Virus record (IMG/VR): IMGVR_UViG_3300046012_000591
Coordinates: 1-22,834 of that record
Length of the DNA stretch: 22,834 bases
Origin: a virus
Strand: one strand, 5' to 3'
In this document: piece by piece, positions 2,908 through 22,395 of the stretch
Layout of the letters: every line of letters starts with the position of its first letter
Position numbering within the stretch: the stretch's first letter is position 1
The notes under the pieces: model-generated
Told to the model about the DNA's origin: nothing
Seen by the model: only the letters and a program-made list of their open reading frames with translations
Databases searched by the model: none
Position numbers and translations under genes: made by a program

Positions 2908-2955
2908 ATAAGTAGGATATGGATCACTATACGCAATAATACCTTGAGGGAGACA

Positions 2956-3318
2956 ATGGAACAACAACTCGTTGAGTTATTGAAAGAAGTCAATATCGCT
3001 CAAATCTTTATCATATTCGCAGGTGGGTGGGTTTTCTATAATCGTTTGGACAATAAGATAGCTAAGTCAGAAGATAGACTGTCTGACCAAATTAAAACAG
3101 TAAAATTTGAATTGAAAGATGAAATTAAAGCAGTAAAATCTGAACTGAAAGAGGAAATCAAAATTTTAGGTAACAAAGTAGAGGATATTGACCGACGCTT
3201 GTGCCGCATTGAAGGCGGAATAACTTTAGCTCACTTTGCTTATCATCAATCAAGATCACAAAAAGTAGATTCACAACCAGAAGAACCACATCATCCAAAA
3301 GAGGGATCCGCGGTTTAG
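2956..3318 (+). CDS. Small membrane-anchored coiled-coil protein, copy 2
   Basis: A 120-residue near-copy of the preceding gene with the same membrane segment, coiled coil and HFAYHQS tail. It is 12 residues longer, 11 of them from a duplicated block in the coiled coil: TVKFELKDEIK followed by AVKSELKEEIK. An 11-residue insert equals about three helical turns, so it can lengthen the coil without breaking its hydrophobic stripe. The ATG at 2956 has AGGGAG upstream, identical to copy 1. The two may form mixed oligomers. No terminator lies between them, so they are probably cotranscribed. Function unknown. Confidence 0.75.
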   Translation: MEQQLVELLKEVNIAQIFIIFAGGWVFYNRLDNKIAKSEDRLSDQIKTVKFELKDEIKAVKSELKEEIKILGNKVEDIDRRLCRIEGGITLAHFAYHQSRSQKVDSQPEEPHHPKEGSAV

Positions 3319-3595: not shown

Positions 3596-3745
3596 CTACT
3601 TTCCTTTCTTAGGTATTTTTGCTCCCGAACGTCTGGCTTCGGAGAGAGCTATCGCAACAGCTTGCTTTTTAGGCTTGCCAACATGCATTTCTGTGGACAC
3701 GTTATCTGATATGGCCTTCTTGCTCGTTCCTTTCATGAGAGGCAT
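3596..3745 (-). CDS. Small basic phage protein with GKPKKQAVAIALSEAR motif
   Basis: A 49-residue protein (MPLMKGTSKKAISDNVSTEM..., ending KIPKKGK) with a clear AGGAGA site 5 nt before its ATG. The motif GKPKKQAVAIALSEARRSG (residues 23-41) is the signature of a very widespread family of tiny phage and plasmid proteins, similar to the SRKQAIAIGLSEARKAG part of DUF6496-like proteins. No activity is known; a nucleic-acid or chaperone-like role is often assumed from the charge. It lies between the lipoprotein and the Lys/Ala-rich gene with gaps of 8 nt and 1 nt, so all three are likely one transcript. The recognisable family motif makes it a real gene despite its size. Confidence 0.75.
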   Translation of the reverse strand: MPLMKGTSKKAISDNVSTEMHVGKPKKQAVAIALSEARRSGAKIPKKGK

Positions 3746-3753
3746 GCGATCTC

Positions 3754-3915
3754 CTATTTTTGCGCAGGTAAGGTAGGACTAACGGTAGTGCTTGGTGTGT
3801 TCGATAGTGTCTCATCTACCAGATCTGAAGCAGTTCCCTGAGAATGTGCAGTTGTGACCGATAAGGTACACGAGGGAAGCAAAAAAGCCATCACTATAAA
3901 CAACATCTTTTTCAC
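3754..3915 (-). CDS. Small predicted lipoprotein
   Basis: A 53-residue protein that I start at GTG 3915 (VKKMLFIVMAFLLPSC...), because AGGAG lies 7 nt upstream; the internal ATG at 3906 lacks a site. The N-terminus is a typical lipoprotein signal: two Lys, a hydrophobic run, and the lipobox-like LPSC with Cys16 as the lipid-modified residue (Pro at -2 is unusual but tolerated). The mature part is about 38 residues, rich in Thr, Ser and Pro, with HSQGTASDLVDETL in the middle. Small phage lipoproteins include Rz1 spanins and superinfection-exclusion proteins. It lacks the Pro-richness and Rz overlap of an Rz1, so I do not assign one. First gene of a three-gene minus-strand cluster. Confidence 0.65.
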   Translation of the reverse strand: MKKMLFIVMAFLLPSCTLSVTTAHSQGTASDLVDETLSNTPSTTVSPTLPAQK

Positions 3916-4149: not shown

Positions 4150-4199
4150 AATCATGAATCATTACGAGTCTTTTATGTCCCTTCATTGTAGGAAATATA

Positions 4200-5159
4200 A
4201 TGTTTAGAAAAAAAAATCTCTCATATTCATTCAAAATTTTTATCGCAATCTTACTATGCTTATCATTTTTAAATACGCTCTACTGTGATTTTGAATTGCA
4301 AAATGGTAGACGTAGAAGGCATACTCCTCATAGACATTTTCATCCTAGACCACCTATAACTGTAGAGTATCCCAAAAACATTAGCATCAGAAGCAGAGAT
4401 AGTGGAATGTTTAGTCTATTTTTTGATGTTTTGTATGCATCTTGGGAATGGGATAATGGACTTCTAGATTCATTTACAGTTGATTTCCATAAGCAAGGAT
4501 TATACTTTGAAGAAAAATATGGAGACAATTGGTGGGAATATTACTGTGAACCCATAAGATTAGGAAGCCCAACAGGTGAAGTAAGATTAGTAGAGTATGG
4601 GTCCTATAAACATAGAGCTCCATGGGCTGAATGGATTGGTAGTGGAATTCCTAGAAAAAATGCATATGACTTAGTAGAAAAGTATATTCACCCCAAACAG
4701 CATATTATTGAAAAGGTGGATTCTTTTTATAATGAACACCTCTTAGGCAAGCATGTCATTGCAATCCACTACCGAGGAACCGATAAGATAAGCGAGGCTC
4801 CGCGTGCTGATTATAAGAATATATCTGATCAAGTGGAACAATCGATAAGGAAATTAGAAAAATACAAAAATATCAAAATATTCATAGCAACAGATGAACA
4901 GGACTTTATCGATTATGCAACCTCTCTTTGGGGAGATCGTATTTGTTATAGAGACGCTATTAGATCTACAGATAAAAGACCTGTTCACACAAACAAAGCG
5001 AATTCTCCTTATCAATTGGGAGAAGACGCCATGATAGATATGTTATTGCTTTCTCGTAGTGATCTTTTAATTAGAACAAGTTCTAACTTAAGTTTGTGGT
5101 CAACTTTCTTTAATCCATACATGGGATTGATTGAAATAACCAAAAGATACTGGCAATGA
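4200..5159 (+). CDS. Secreted fucosyltransferase-superfamily glycosyltransferase
   Basis: A 319-residue protein. Residues 1-29 form a signal peptide or signal anchor (Lys-rich start, FKIFIAILLCLSFLNTL core), followed by an Arg/His-rich linker (37-50). The GT core resembles NodZ/FUT8-type and related bacterial enzymes. It has a cap region SGMFSLFFDVLYASWEWDNG (68-87), GDNWWEYYCEPI (108-119), the donor-binding motif HYRGTDK (190-196, equivalent to H-x-R-x-T-D-K that holds GDP-fucose), IFIATDEQDFIDY (227-239), and a C-terminal RTSSNLSLWSTFFNP (292-306). By family it transfers fucose or a related sugar from a nucleotide donor to a glycan; acceptor and exact sugar are unknown. The ATG has AGGA about 8 nt upstream. 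It is more AT-rich than the virion genes, stands alone on the plus strand and ends 1 bp from the convergent adhesin gene, consistent with an acquired cargo gene. Cytosolic-type GT chemistry combined with a signal peptide is unusual for phage. Confidence 0.75.
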   Translation: MFRKKNLSYSFKIFIAILLCLSFLNTLYCDFELQNGRRRRHTPHRHFHPRPPITVEYPKNISIRSRDSGMFSLFFDVLYASWEWDNGLLDSFTVDFHKQGLYFEEKYGDNWWEYYCEPIRLGSPTGEVRLVEYGSYKHRAPWAEWIGSGIPRKNAYDLVEKYIHPKQHIIEKVDSFYNEHLLGKHVIAIHYRGTDKISEAPRADYKNISDQVEQSIRKLEKYKNIKIFIATDEQDFIDYATSLWGDRICYRDAIRSTDKRPVHTNKANSPYQLGEDAMIDMLLLSRSDLLIRTSSNLSLWSTFFNPYMGLIEITKRYWQ

Positions 5160-5160
5160 T

Positions 5161-6312
5161 CTAGAAGTATTCGATGATGATGATTTTACCATCTCCTCCG
5201 TTTCCACCAGCTCCTGAGTTGGCTTGAGAATCCAGACCACCTCCTCCGCCTCCTCCACCCCCACCTGGTTGGGATCCATTACCTCCTGCACCACTAACTG
5301 AACCACTTTTTGTACCACCACCACCGCCCCCGCCAAGTCCACCACTCATCAATCCGCCTGTTGTCGCGGCTGAACTGCCATTACTACCACCGATAGTTCC
5401 TGTCTGTATTCCACCAGCTGCACCTGCAATCACCGTGGTTCCGGCTGGATTAATTTGAGCTCCTCCAGCTCCTCCGGCTCGTGCTGTAGATGTGTTTGCT
5501 CCTCCACCTCCACCACCTCCAGTTGATAGAGCGAATCCTCCAAAGGAAGTTTGTCCCCCAACGTCAGTTCCATTTGATCCAGTTGATAACTGACCACCCC
5601 CGCCTGCTCCCGGTGTTGCTACGTTTGGGCTATAAAAGAAAGTACCTTGAGCTGGCCTTGCAGATCCGCCGGCGATTCCACCACCAGTTGGAACTCCTCC
5701 TCCTCCAAAGTTTCCACCTATAGCAAGAATATTTCCTAATGTAGTGTTATTTCCAACGTTTCCAGGACGTCCATTAACTTCGTCTGATGTTTGAGGTGTT
5801 CCTCCTATTCCCCCTGTACCAATACTATATGCTAATCCACCGGAGAATAATGAAGCAGGTCCTGAAACATAAACTGACTGTCCTCCTCCTCCTCCTCCCC
5901 CTCCTCCGGCTGCTCCGTTAGAACCCTTATATCCGCTTCCTCCGCCGCCTCCGCTACCCCACAAGTAAGCTTCTACCCAAATAGTGTTGGCATTAATGTT
6001 CCACGTTCCTGATCCCGATGTATAAGTAGTGACAAGGGTAAATCCAGGAGCACCTACGGCATTAATCGTGATCGATCCGGCTGCGTTTGTGATAGAAACG
6101 TTTGTACCAGCTGTTAAAGTAGATGCTGTGGGATCATTACCTGTATTCCCAATGAGCAGCTGACCATTTGTTAATAGAGTACTAGTAATGCCGTTAGACG
6201 CAGCTCCAATTAGTGTAGCGTGTTGAGTGACAGTAACACCTGAGAAAGTTCCAGATCCATCGTATTTTACTAAACCAGCAGATGAAGCATTGATTGCATT
6301 ATTTGTGGGCAT
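5161..6312 (-). CDS. Poly-glycine-rich tail adhesin
   Basis: A 383-residue protein with two parts. Residues 1-88 (MPTNNAINASSAGLVKYDG... to AGSITINAVGA) are nearly the same as the N-terminus of the next upstream gene, presumably a shared attachment or trimerisation module. From about 108 (TIWVEAYLWGSGGGGGSG) to the end is a glycine-rich domain with many Gly runs of 5-10, closing with GKIIIIEYF. That pattern (a W-G-x-GGGGG entry, glycine runs, and a short hydrophobic beta-strand end) matches glycine-rich phage tail domains. It is reminiscent of the poly-glycine sandwich of T-even gp38 adhesins, where loops between Gly helices bind the receptor. GAGG precedes the ATG. It is the last gene of the minus-strand virion block, so a tip adhesin is plausible. 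The receptor is unknown. Confidence 0.7.
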   Translation of the reverse strand: MPTNNAINASSAGLVKYDGSGTFSGVTVTQHATLIGAASNGITSTLLTNGQLLIGNTGNDPTASTLTAGTNVSITNAAGSITINAVGAPGFTLVTTYTSGSGTWNINANTIWVEAYLWGSGGGGGSGYKGSNGAAGGGGGGGGGQSVYVSGPASLFSGGLAYSIGTGGIGGTPQTSDEVNGRPGNVGNNTTLGNILAIGGNFGGGGVPTGGGIAGGSARPAQGTFFYSPNVATPGAGGGGQLSTGSNGTDVGGQTSFGGFALSTGGGGGGGANTSTARAGGAGGAQINPAGTTVIAGAAGGIQTGTIGGSNGSSAATTGGLMSGGLGGGGGGGTKSGSVSGAGGNGSQPGGGGGGGGGGLDSQANSGAGGNGGDGKIIIIEYF

Positions 6313-8663: not shown

Positions 8664-8856
8664 CTGAAGACTCCTGTTTAGGCTCTTCTACTTCTATTTT
8701 AGCCTTGTCTTGAGCAGCCTTTTCGATATCGGCCACCATCTTGGCAAATTGAATCAACGCATCCTTTAGGTCTACGAGTGGTGAATCGGGAGCGCACATC
8801 AGGTGATAGGTGCGCTGTCCGATTTGATGCATCATAACTGTGATTTGACTGATCAT
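8641..8856 (-). CDS. Small helical protein in the fibre cluster
   Basis: A 71-residue protein starting MISQITVMMHQIGQRTYHLM, with AAAGGA about 5 nt before the ATG. The N-terminal half (HLMCAPDSPLVDLKDALIQFAKMVADIEK) is helical. The C-terminal third is a charged, Glu/Gln/Ser-rich tail. Its end overlaps the next gene by 23 nt in another frame. Short helical proteins between a large fibre gene and fibre-tip genes may be fibre-assembly factors, but nothing in the sequence proves this. Confidence 0.55.
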   Translation of the reverse strand: MISQITVMMHQIGQRTYHLMCAPDSPLVDLKDALIQFAKMVADIEKAAQDKAKIEVEEPKQESSDVVQPSK

Positions 8857-8864
8857 GAGTTCCT

Positions 8865-11243
8865 TTAGGTTTGTCTGAATATGATGTAAGAGAAGGAGCT
8901 CACATCGGCTGTTTGCGGACTCACAGGTGTTCCTAGGATCACGCTGGTTACTGTAAAGCTGGCTCCTGCACTGATGCTGTATGTCAACTCACCAAGTGTA
9001 ACCGAACCGTTCGTGGCGATTCTGCTTAGGAAAATCCTATCGTTAGCTGCGATGTTTGTATTCGCGATGGTGACAGTTCCAGATACAAGAACAGAAGTTC
9101 CGATGAAGTCCGTCGCAGCTCCACCGTTCAGGCTGATTTTTGTCGCTACAGACGTTAAGTTGACATCCCCTGTAAGGTTAATCGCTCCAGAACCGGATTG
9201 GATTGTGGTAGTGGATGTTGAATTTGTGGAACCGACTGTGACTGTGTTAGCTCCTGCACCATCACCAATATTGATTGTCTTTCCGCCTGTACTATGACCA
9301 ATGTTGATGGTTTGCGCTCCAGTTCCACCTGCAATCGTCATTGTGCCTGTGTTAGCTCCTGTTCCACCGAAGTTGATGGTTCCAGAAGTGGTGGATGGTG
9401 CAAAGGTGTATATGGAGGTTGAAGCTCCATCTAGTGAAAAGTTTCCTGTTCCAACTAGCATAGAGATTGAAGCAGCACCAGAAACTGTACCAATCGTTAA
9501 AACGTTTGCGACTGCTCCCGTTGCGATATTGACCGCCTTGGCGCTACCAGCACCACCAGCGATATTGACGGTTGTTGCTCCAGTACCAGCACCGATTGCC
9601 ACAATATTAGTACCAGATGAGCTTCCTAGGGTCATGGTCCCTGTTTGAGCAGTACCACCAATCGTGATTGTTCCCGTAGTTGTTGAAGCTCCTACAGAAT
9701 AAGTTGACGATGCTGCCCCGTCTAAGGAATAGTTTCCGGTTCCAACTCTTAAGGTTAAACTAGATGCTCCGTTTGCTGAACCAATAGACACAACGTTAGT
9801 GCCTGCGCCAGCTCCGATGTTAATAGTCTTACCGCCTGTGGAGTTGGCTATATTGACTGTTTGAGCTCCTGTTCCTGGGGCAACCGCAATCGTACCAGTC
9901 TGGGCCCCCGTACCTCCTACCGTGATCGTTCCGGTGGTCATTGCAGTACCCATGTTGATAGCTCCACCTGTCTGTACGACACCAAGGCTAAGCGTACCGG
10001 CACCAGCGCCATTCATGATTTTAACGGCGTTTGTTCCGCTGGATGATCCTAAGACAAGGTCTCCTGTCTGCGCGGTACCACCTATGGTAATTGTACCTGT
10101 GGTTGTGGATGCTCCTAAAGTGTATGTTGATCCTGTGACACCATCTAGAACATAATTTCCAGTGCCTACATGCTCTACAAGTCCAGTTGCTCCAGTTGTG
10201 TTACCAATGGTGATTGTCTTAGCAATCGATGTTCCAATGTTGATAGCACCCGTTCCTGAATCTATCGCAACTGCAGTCGTGCCCGTGACGTTACCTATGG
10301 ATACAGTATGAGCAATTGCATTCGTTCCTATATTGATTGATGATCCAGTACCACCATTGATAGAAACGCTAGTGGTTGCGGTGCTATTACCAATAGATAT
10401 AGCTCTGGTTCCGGCAGATCCAATGGTGATATCTTGGTTTACAGCATCATTTCCTATATCGATCGTATCTGAAGAACTGTTCAGCTGAAGGACTCCTCCA
10501 GAATCTAAAAGAAGATTGTCGGCGGAATCAATTGCAATATCTCCTGTGGATGTGGAGGTAATTCCAACACCTCCAGTTCCAGAGTTAATATCAACTGACG
10601 TTGCTCCCGTTACGTTTCCAATCGTAATTACCCTATCCGCTGCTGCTGTACCGATATTAACAGCTGCTGTGTCTACGTCCGTAGCTAAGTTTAGAGCGGT
10701 CCCAGCTGTCAAAATGGTTGCACTTCCACTTAGTGAAGCAAGTCCAGAAGCGGAAAGAGTTGTAAAATGACCAGCAGCAGGAGTCGTTCCTCCAGATGGA
10801 GGGGGCGATGCAAAAATGGTTGTGATATTTGCAGGAGTCAAAACAGTATTGGCACCTAATGGAATACCATATGGTGAAACCACATCGGCATTTGTCGCTA
10901 GATAAGAAATGCCTTTTGTAACCTGAGAAGCATCAGGAGCGCCTGCAATGGCTAAATTGTCTGCATAAAACTTCGTGGCGACCGGCTCATTGTTGTCTGT
11001 TAAAAGTACCGTTCCATAGGTCGTTGTAGTGGCTGGACTTCCACCAGAAGTATTCCAAACTCCTGCCCCAGTGGTTTCATAGATTTCAGGAGTACTTACG
11101 GAGTTGTCTTGCCAGCAAGTACCAGGAGGATAGATGTCTTGAGTTGTGGGAGCCCTCATTGCTGAAAGGAACTGAGGGTATACATACCCGTCAACGACGT
11201 TTGCAAAGTTTCCGCCCGACTGATTGAAAAGAGCTGAAGTCAT
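8865..11243 (-). CDS. Large beta-repeat tail fibre protein
   Basis: A 792-residue probable trimeric fibre. GGAGG lies 7 nt before the ATG. Residues 1-70 form a head or attachment region (GNFANVVDGYVYPQFLSAMR, PPGTCWQDNSVSTPEIYE). About 155-690 is a long array of short beta repeats of the form T-I-x-I-G-N-x-T-G-x-x-x-V, with Asn, Gly and Thr at fixed places, typical of beta-helical or beta-prism shafts. Within it a longer unit recurs with VGTGNYVLDG (359), VGTGNYSLDG (500) and VGTGNFSLDG (597), each followed by Tyr/Thr-rich strands and a TGTITIGGTAQTG-like strand. About 705-792 is a separate C-terminal domain (ANDRIFLSRIATNGSVTLGE, LTYSISAGASFTVTSV), as in fibre ends that trimerise or bind receptors. 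It is preceded by a 142-bp gap, one of the few in the block. Confidence 0.75.
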   Translation of the reverse strand: MTSALFNQSGGNFANVVDGYVYPQFLSAMRAPTTQDIYPPGTCWQDNSVSTPEIYETTGAGVWNTSGGSPATTTTYGTVLLTDNNEPVATKFYADNLAIAGAPDASQVTKGISYLATNADVVSPYGIPLGANTVLTPANITTIFASPPPSGGTTPAAGHFTTLSASGLASLSGSATILTAGTALNLATDVDTAAVNIGTAAADRVITIGNVTGATSVDINSGTGGVGITSTSTGDIAIDSADNLLLDSGGVLQLNSSSDTIDIGNDAVNQDITIGSAGTRAISIGNSTATTSVSINGGTGSSINIGTNAIAHTVSIGNVTGTTAVAIDSGTGAINIGTSIAKTITIGNTTGATGLVEHVGTGNYVLDGVTGSTYTLGASTTTGTITIGGTAQTGDLVLGSSSGTNAVKIMNGAGAGTLSLGVVQTGGAINMGTAMTTGTITVGGTGAQTGTIAVAPGTGAQTVNIANSTGGKTINIGAGAGTNVVSIGSANGASSLTLRVGTGNYSLDGAASSTYSVGASTTTGTITIGGTAQTGTMTLGSSSGTNIVAIGAGTGATTVNIAGGAGSAKAVNIATGAVANVLTIGTVSGAASISMLVGTGNFSLDGASTSIYTFAPSTTSGTINFGGTGANTGTMTIAGGTGAQTINIGHSTGGKTINIGDGAGANTVTVGSTNSTSTTTIQSGSGAINLTGDVNLTSVATKISLNGGAATDFIGTSVLVSGTVTIANTNIAANDRIFLSRIATNGSVTLGELTYSISAGASFTVTSVILGTPVSPQTADVSSFSYIIFRQT

Positions 11244-18389: not shown

Positions 18390-19528
18390 TAGAAACCCTG
18401 TCCCATTCCCCACCCAGTGCCGAATCCCGTTTGGGTCGTATTGAATAAGGTGATGTTTGGCTGCTGGATCTCTTCTATGGCCTGCCTTTCAAGCACAAGG
18501 GCTTCTTGACGCTTGAAGCCTTCCATAAGGTTTTGCACTCCCTCCATATCTTGACGGTCCCTTAAGATCTCACAAGCTGCTCCATAGGCAATGTACTGGG
18601 CCCACTGATTGAGAATAGGGTTCTGCGTTGTGGTCATGAACTGTACGGGTGTCTGATAAGCTTCTATTTCGCACAAATAGACGTTGTCTGGCACTGGTCT
18701 AATGGTAAATTCGTTGTTCCAGAAAAGCAGGTTATAGGGCCTGCCTACCTGATAGGTTGCAGCCCAAACGTTGATCATCGTGCCTGCTGCCGGTGCTACA
18801 GGGAACGTTACGTTTATTTCGGTTGTCACATAGTTCACAGTGCCACAATACTGCGGTGTCTGCGGAGAAGGAGGAGAAGGGACAGGGATTGGAGACAAGG
18901 GAGGAATTGCAGGCTGTTGCACGTTCGATGAGTCTAGATAGACGTTATTTCCCACATTGTTTTGATTAACAAATAAGAGTTGTCCTGTAGTTGTATTGCT
19001 TCCGATCCCAAGTGCAGTGACAACACCGCCACCGTCATCAATGATACGAATAGGATTACCGTTAACATCGATTCCTCCTATGACAACTTGTGTGCTTAGA
19101 ATTCCAAAGTTAGGCTGTGGAAATGGGTTCTGGTTGTTTCCAAACAGTGTAAACGTAAACGAAGTCGTCACTCCATCTCCACCTACAGGCTGAAACTGCG
19201 TAGGGTAGCGTGGATATAGGTTTAAGAGCTGGTCGCGATTCTTGAAAAAGTTCCCTTGTATCCCCTCAAAGTAAATAGGAGCACGAAATCCCTGGTACAT
19301 GTTTACGTCAACTGGGTATCTGTCTACGTTAGGAATCGTTAAGAATTTGTAAACAGCTCGCTGCTGATCGATTTTAATTGCATAGGGGAAATCATTTGAA
19401 TAGAATACGTTGACCGCCCTCTGGATGTCTGCACTACTCAAAGCAGACTGGCTCGCAGACGCGGTGAGCCTGCGAACTTTAGTCTCGATGAACGTATAGG
19501 TAGAATCTGCCGGTAGTACTGATGACAT
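18389..19528 (-). CDS. gp4-like head-tail adaptor candidate
   Basis: A 379-residue protein. The N-terminal 120 residues are helix/strand mixed (SAADIQ-like SALSSADIQRAVNVFYSND, DQQRAVYKFLTIPNVDRYPV). The middle holds beta segments and a Pro-rich linker (PPLSPIPVPSPPSPQTPQ). About 304-350 is a helical bundle: NQWAQYIAYGAACEILRDRQ and VQNLMEGFKRQEALVLERQ. This helix pair (W-x-x-Y-I-A-x-G-A-A followed by a charged helix) is typical of gp4-type adaptors that attach the tail to the portal. The gene order capsid, small proteins, adaptor, nozzle supports it. Its stop overlaps the next start (TAATG). It is larger than the classical gp4 (about 166 residues), the excess being the beta insert. Confidence 0.5.
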   Translation of the reverse strand: MSSVLPADSTYTFIETKVRRLTASASQSALSSADIQRAVNVFYSNDFPYAIKIDQQRAVYKFLTIPNVDRYPVDVNMYQGFRAPIYFEGIQGNFFKNRDQLLNLYPRYPTQFQPVGGDGVTTSFTFTLFGNNQNPFPQPNFGILSTQVVIGGIDVNGNPIRIIDDGGGVVTALGIGSNTTTGQLLFVNQNNVGNNVYLDSSNVQQPAIPPLSPIPVPSPPSPQTPQYCGTVNYVTTEINVTFPVAPAAGTMINVWAATYQVGRPYNLLFWNNEFTIRPVPDNVYLCEIEAYQTPVQFMTTTQNPILNQWAQYIAYGAACEILRDRQDMEGVQNLMEGFKRQEALVLERQAIEEIQQPNITLFNTTQTGFGTGWGMGQGF

Positions 19529-21432: not shown

Positions 21433-22395
21433 TTAGGATGGTTGGAAGGTTGTTGCGTTTAGTCCAGAAATCCAGTTCTGGTTAGTGATAGCACGCGCAA
21501 TGGCGAACTTCGCATAGAGCTGGCTGTTCTGAGCTACAGAGGAAACCACCCAAGGTGGACGATAGCCAATCACGGCGGTGTAGTTGTTCTGCTCGATCTT
21601 GGCAGCAGCTTCTAGGCCGAACATCGGGATTGTATAGACGGTATTTCCCTTCAAGGAGATTCCAGGAATCTTTGCAGCCTTGGAGGAGACAAAGAAGCGG
21701 AATCGGCTAATGGAGCAATACTCCTCTGGTCTGATCCCCTCTTGTGTGGGATATGCAGACTTGAGTAATACGCCTTGAACCTTTTGCAGGTCAGCGCATA
21801 GGTTAGTATTTGCAAGCGCAATAAACGCATCACGCACACCAGCTGTACCGAACTTTAGAGTTGCCTCTAGGTTGGTTAGCATTGTGCGAGCGTCGTTGCC
21901 AAGCAAGATGTTCTCAATGTTGTTTACATCGTTCAGTGAGATGTTACTTGGCTGGTCGCCGTTTAAGCCGCCTGTGCAGTTGAGGTAAGAGACGCTTGAG
22001 GCGAAAAGATCGCGCATAAGCAAATCTTCCTTCTCACGCAGCCATTGACCAAGCAATGCCGTAAACTTTGTGAGCGTCTTGCTGTTCTCCCACAAGACCA
22101 CTTGCTCGTTCGTCACGATGCTCTTGGCGTATATTTCCATAGTCGCATCGATGTCTGTACGAACAGGCACTTCAGATGCGGGATCGATACCAGAGCCATC
22201 GAGCTGCCCACCATCAGTAGATAAGCGCTCAAAGCGTGACATACGAGTCGTCTTACCGATGTAAGATTCTGCGTGATGTAGATCAACACCAAATGAGTGA
22301 ATTAAATTGAACATTGGCGTGGAAAGTAGATCTTCCGAAGCCTGAACGGGTAGTTCAGGTGCCATGTTCTGTATGCCAGTGATTCCAGTTTGCAT
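21433..22395 (-). CDS. Major capsid protein, N4 gp56-like
   Basis: A 320-residue predicted HK97-fold coat protein. Visible family features: an N-terminal arm (NMAPELPVQASEDLLSTPMF), HSFGVDLHHAESYIGKTTRM with a Gly-Lys-Thr entry strand, a helical spine DIDATMEIYAKSIVTNEQVV (about 81-100), FTALLGQWLREKEDLLMRDL (111-130) with the arm helix, and a C-terminal beta region with TVYTIPMFGLEAAAKIEQNN and the final RPPWVVSSVAQNSQLYAKFA. The VTNEQV followed by a tri-helical charged stretch is the hallmark of N4 gp56-type capsid proteins. GAGG precedes the ATG. The gene starts the highly packed virion cluster and is followed by a decoration-like gene. Confident as a coat protein, less so about subfamily. 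Confidence 0.8.
   Translation of the reverse strand: MQTGITGIQNMAPELPVQASEDLLSTPMFNLIHSFGVDLHHAESYIGKTTRMSRFERLSTDGGQLDGSGIDPASEVPVRTDIDATMEIYAKSIVTNEQVVLWENSKTLTKFTALLGQWLREKEDLLMRDLFASSVSYLNCTGGLNGDQPSNISLNDVNNIENILLGNDARTMLTNLEATLKFGTAGVRDAFIALANTNLCADLQKVQGVLLKSAYPTQEGIRPEEYCSISRFRFFVSSKAAKIPGISLKGNTVYTIPMFGLEAAAKIEQNNYTAVIGYRPPWVVSSVAQNSQLYAKFAIARAITNQNWISGLNATTFQPS

Follow-up and report, generated by a model that had tools for sequence, protein, structure and literature searches.

What is a lone fucosyltransferase-like gene doing at the end of a phage's tail genes, and on which glycan would its product act? The gene, P0001 (4200–5159, + strand), lies in the window analysed here, which comes from an IMG/VR virus record, is 22,834 bases long and covers 22.8 of about 38 kb of the phage.

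Genomic setting of P0001

The − strand of the window carries the structural module, in which tail fibre, tail and virion proteins were assigned with PHROGs. Position and conservation alone identify a probable major capsid protein (21433–22395, −). The left end of the + strand carries a recombination gene and a YqaJ-type exonuclease gene (1822–2460, +; Pfam YqaJ, 3.4e-28). P0001 has an intact frame of 319 aa, which starts with ATG and has AGGA (4190–4193, +), a probable ribosome-binding site read from the sequence, 7–10 bases upstream. It converges with the last tail gene, a glycine-rich tail-fibre-like gene (5161–6312, −; phrog_31660 tail fibre, 1.1e-6), and 1 bp separates the two stops. The tail-fibre-like genes beside P0001 on the − strand matched phrog_31660 with E values of 1e-6 to 3e-7, in agreement with the adhesin neighbours noted in a first-pass annotation. 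An Rfam search of the window gave no match.

Family and fold of the P0001 product

Pfam NodZ matched P0001 at 4.7e-11 (42.5 bits, cut-off 28.3) over residues 161–304 only, and FUT8_N_cat scored 24.4, below its cut-off of 27.6. A PDB sequence search also returned NodZ (1.6e-9). Single-protein scans of viral and genome contigs found no close relatives of P0001, and an alignment query that paired it with a Leisingera NodZ-like protein yielded nine viral loci. The profile of the resulting viral family (ten proteins) matched the solved structures of NodZ (5.8e-15), FUT8 (1.9e-12) and POFUT1 (4.5e-4). An AlphaFold model built with the family alignment reached a pLDDT of 70.9 and a pTM of 0.70, compared with a pLDDT of 41.8 without the alignment. 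Its best PDB fold matches in Foldseek were NodZ (4.8e-10) and FUT8 (3.0e-9), with TM-scores of about 0.5–0.58 for a model of medium confidence. In a viral structure library, the top matches were a Mimiviridae protein and the fucosyltransferase of cyanophage S-SRM01.

The conserved motifs were located in the alignment of the viral members. The catalytic domain begins with SRDSGMFS (4392–4415, +; S65 and S72 invariant), followed by the subfamily motif WEYYCEP (4533–4553, +), in which W112, E113, Y114, Y115, E117 and P118 are invariant in 10 sequences. The donor-site motif HYRGTDKISE (4767–4796, +) contains R192, D195, K196 and E199. The C-terminal donor-site block LLSRSDLLIRTSSNLSLWSTFFNP (5046–5120, +; N296 and N305 invariant) includes TSSNLSLWSTFFNP at residues 294–307, and the protein terminates directly behind the TSSN/FFNP block. 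The donor residues of the HxR motif and of the TxSN block (S295/N296) are present, and every family-invariant residue is retained. The HYRGTDK motif (residues 190–196, nt 4767–4787) and the TSSNLSLWSTFFNP end, on which the earlier assignment was founded, are thus both found in the intact frame. The roles of R365, D368 and K369 in FUT8 have been described (PMC12930516), and R192, D195 and K196 of P0001 show the same spacing in an alignment with FUT8. E199 is located at +7, whereas the catalytic base of FUT8, E373, is at +8; two large-phage members (L111a and L112) share the +7 position.

The profile and fold matches to NodZ and FUT8 and the donor-site spacing make the class well supported: by sequence and fold, P0001 would be a GT23/NodZ-type, GDP-fucose-dependent fucosyltransferase, with predicted activity and linkage. 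Membership of the fucosyltransferase superfamily is very probable from the profiles and the model, and GDP-fucose is the probable donor. The superfamily had been proposed before, with an HMM search and structure prediction as the check; NodZ exceeded the Pfam cut-off, and both NodZ and FUT8 were recovered as fold matches. In the tree, P0001 stood alone on a long branch without a supported sister. Its homologues in Bacteroidota amounted to 1/296, and its nearest sequence relatives were phage and bacterial, not eukaryotic.

Comparison with known fucosyltransferases

NodZ, the alpha-1,6-fucosyltransferase of nodulation (GT23; PDB 2hhc/3siw/3six), was the best match in both Pfam and PDB and has the GT-B fold and the donor-site region in common with P0001. 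However, identity is about 18% over the structural match, NodZ carries HVRHGNGED where the P0001 family has HxRGTDK, a hydrophobic N-terminus was not seen in the Bradyrhizobium NodZ, and nodulation genes do not occur in the P0001 setting. FUT8, the core alpha-1,6-fucosyltransferase of GT23, shares the HxRxTDK motif, the residue spacing and the fold at about 14% identity. FUT8 also has an N-terminal coiled-coil and a C-terminal SH3 domain, and P0001, with 319 aa, is too short for either.

NodZ-type genes in cyanophages have already been published (PMC9602691, PMC8557907), and a phage NodZ is therefore not new. The cyanophage enzymes (S-SCSM1 ORF134, S-SRM01 ORF303; S-B05, RN05-S) are phage-encoded and have a P0001-like fold. 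Unlike P0001, the RN05-S and S-H68 copies are about 260 aa long, have no signal and lie within sugar-metabolism or glycosyltransferase clusters. The large-phage fucosyltransferases (L108, L110–L116) share SRxxGxFS, WEYYxEP, HxRGTDK and TxSN with P0001, but have 5–11 residues before the first motif and lie inside glycan gene clusters, three of which (L111, L112 and L114) encode a GMD-like reductase as read from the sequence. Two of these clusters contain paired tandem fucosyltransferase paralogues (L110, 5101–6843; L111, 4700–6756). Since HVRGTDK occurs in other, cytoplasmic-type phage members and cyanophage NodZ is published, the label 'eukaryote-like' that had been given to the motif is weak. 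What is new is the stand-alone, membrane-targeted form in a cargo slot; the enzyme family was already known from phages.

N-terminal extension and topology

P0001 has 64 residues ahead of the first motif, compared with 5–11 in the nine other viral members. The extension consists of a four-charge N-tail, a hydrophobic segment (residues 11–28; 4230–4283, +) and a basic His/Arg/Pro-rich juxtamembrane linker (residues 30–55; 4287–4364, +). In the N-terminus, MFRKKNLSYSFKIFIAILLCLSFLNTLYC, the hydrophobic core reaches a best 17-residue mean hydropathy of 2.27 at residue 13 and is followed by the basic His/Pro-rich stretch DFELQNGRRRRHTPHRHFHPRPP. The pI of residues 30–60 is 11.3, and residues 38–56 have a pLDDT below 50 in the predicted model. 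The hydrophobic segment has no counterpart in the nine aligned viral relatives. Retention of motif and signal in homologues had been set as a check on the earlier reading; among the viral relatives compared, the HxRGTDK motif was kept and the N-terminal signal was not.

Either a signal peptide or a signal anchor would fit the N-terminus. LYC/D is a possible cleavage site, but a basic region comes next. Because the basic flank follows the hydrophobic segment directly, clean Sec export is less likely, and the flank fits a membrane anchor equally well. Secretion of P0001 is thus uncertain and its topology ambiguous: of the signal peptide and secretion claimed earlier, the hydrophobic export-or-anchor N-terminus stands, and 'secreted' is better put as 'membrane-targeted, possibly exported'.

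This architecture bears on the possibility that the bacterium exports P0001 and that the enzyme fucosylates glycans of a eukaryotic cell housing that bacterium, an idea that the first-pass annotation had also raised and that we regard as unlikely. Golgi enzymes have a type II layout, and FUT8 has a hydrophobic N-terminus plus a stem in this layout. P0001 resembles it in having a short basic N-tail, then a hydrophobic segment, a flexible stem and a catalytic domain like that of FUT8, and the signal is not present in the nine viral relatives. In addition, GDP-fucose would be at hand in a eukaryotic cell, giant-virus proteins were among the closest structural matches, and P0001 shares its slot with small exported proteins. 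On the other hand, the closest sequence relatives are phage or bacterial, and a basic stretch so early in the mature protein disfavours Sec export.

Cargo slot between the tail genes and YqaJ

The slot, defined as the interval from the last tail gene to YqaJ, was compared in 15 relatives with limits drawn by hand. Small conserved genes were found in it, often together with one or two ORFs whose N-termini look like signals. Such ORFs accounted for 16/36 inside the slot and 9/318 elsewhere (Fisher p = 4e-12), as counted with a crude signal predictor, with homologues counted repeatedly and P0001 itself among the 16. In four relatives (L083, L084, L086 and L087), a signal-bearing ORF was convergent with the adjoining ORF, with stops overlapping by 4–33 bp; in all of these but L087 the partner was the last tail gene, and the layout is the one seen at P0001. 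P0001 is thus shown to be a single-gene cargo that abuts the last tail gene end-to-end, at a site where relatives carry other signal-bearing proteins.

Several other slot genes were observed. In the window, a short MPL..KKQAVAIALSEARRSGAKIPKK protein (3596–3745, −; phrog_2423, E 2.8e-18) is encoded by a small conserved gene found in the slot of most relatives, and a small lipoprotein-like ORF (3754–3915, −) has an LLPSC lipobox. Tandem near-duplicate genes (2488–2907 and 2944–3318) encode single-TM coiled-coil proteins, and like-built proteins occur in relatives L094, L102, L132 and L133; the tandem products are possibly exclusion or lysis factors, with a weak holin-like PHROG match. Signal-bearing small proteins adjoin the last tail gene in the L083, L084, L086, L087, L090 and L129 slots, and the cargo protein at L084:15284–15604 has relatives with 52–69% identity in eight other viral records. 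The slots of L098 (2431–3111) and L130 (9520–10233) contain glycosyltransferase-like genes that are 53% identical to each other (phrog_1574) and show weak matches to glycosyltransferase PHROGs.

The position of P0001 against the tail-fibre genes, and the glycosyltransferase-like genes that L098 and L130 hold in the same slot, would suit an enzyme that, inside the infected cell, fucosylates the capsid or the adjacent fibre proteins and so changes adsorption or hides the particle; cytoplasmic GDP-fucose would be enough if the domain faced inward. However, P0001 is convergent with the fibre genes and is therefore not co-transcribed with them. A hydrophobic N-terminus is also unexpected for an enzyme whose substrates are soluble virion proteins, and the slot cargo is mostly signal-bearing. 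We consider virion glycosylation unlikely.

No P0001 homologue was found in 50 related phage records, 20 of which were at least 34 kb long, in line with the acquisition that had been proposed, as a rare event. The AT content, which had been offered as evidence of acquisition, is indeed higher (GC 0.345), but codon usage was not discordant: the codon choice of P0001 was biased toward the phage's preferred codons (z = +3.0; fibA, +2.8), and 'foreign by AT content' was dropped. The absence from the other related records could also be expected of a neutral or non-functional passenger or an assembly chimera. The intact frame with all family-invariant residues kept, the phage-like codon usage and the recurrence of the end-to-end convergent layout among relatives make that highly improbable.

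Phage group, host and lifestyle

Relatives of the capsid candidate were present in 251 viral (IMG/VR) contigs, and identity was 88–97% across the best 80 of the 251, which were retained (L002–L081). Neither the capsid candidate nor the 18392–19528 protein led to a named phage relative, and one structural protein was weakly similar to LUZ24-like podoviruses. The capsid candidate is probably carried by a widespread uncultured podovirus-like group. The sole cellular-genome contig with a capsid relative was a 16.5 kb contig of a Bacteroidetes metagenome bin (L082). Because only 1/21 genomes of that family had a capsid relative, this contig is probably bin contamination through a binning error or a free virion.

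Conversion genes classically include glycosyltransferases, and P0001 is a lone cargo gene in its own orientation. Expression from a prophage, with modification of the surface and a block to superinfection, had been suggested in the first-pass annotation. A tyrosine integrase was found in one of 20 near-complete relatives (G012, 8788–9261), so lysogenic conversion is not favoured, and the only cellular contig with a relative is the metagenome-bin contig described above; we regard conversion as quite unlikely. Serine-recombinase-like ORFs were noted by eye in L130 and L133.

GDP-mannose dehydratase was not found in the window or the 20 near-complete relatives (0/21). The donor would thus come from the host or be made by genes in the missing part of the genome, where they could lie since the phage record is incomplete. 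The cargo near P0001 may have a chlamydial look; plasmid searches with the slot cargo genes gave no match, and no useful literature on chlamydial tailed phages was found. A more specific proposal, in which the phage infects an intracellular or protist-associated bacterium and the secreted enzyme, belonging to a changing set of exported slot cargo, edits eukaryotic glycans, is doubtful.

Proposed role of P0001

The reading that we tentatively prefer, with slightly less than an even chance for the statement as a whole, is that membrane-tethered P0001 fucosylates an envelope glycan during infection with a donor that the phage does not make. P0001 would be a GT23/NodZ-FUT8-type fucosyltransferase with a GT-B fold and an inverting mechanism, using GDP-fucose supplied by the host. 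Its catalytic domain may be held at the membrane by the N-terminal signal anchor and the basic flexible linker, and would add fucose to an envelope glycan or a lipid-linked glycan of the infected bacterium. The fucosylated envelope may then alter recognition by competing phages or predators. The matches to NodZ and FUT8, the N-terminal extension, the signal-bearing slot cargo, the convergent layout in four relatives and the glycosyltransferase-like genes of L098 and L130 speak for this reading. On the other side, a periplasm-facing domain should find GDP-fucose absent, and a cytoplasm-facing domain would have little in common with the signal-bearing neighbours. An envelope glycan is the putative acceptor.

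The phage fucosyltransferases compared here are signal-less and lie in cytoplasmic-type sugar clusters; P0001 is a stand-alone form, membrane-anchored or exported. If the host inhabits protists, one could ask whether sugar-modifying enzymes are weapons that phages give their hosts against eukaryotes. The presence of a lone anchored or exported enzyme in the cargo slot suggests that this phage group gives infected cells surface or extracellular activities.
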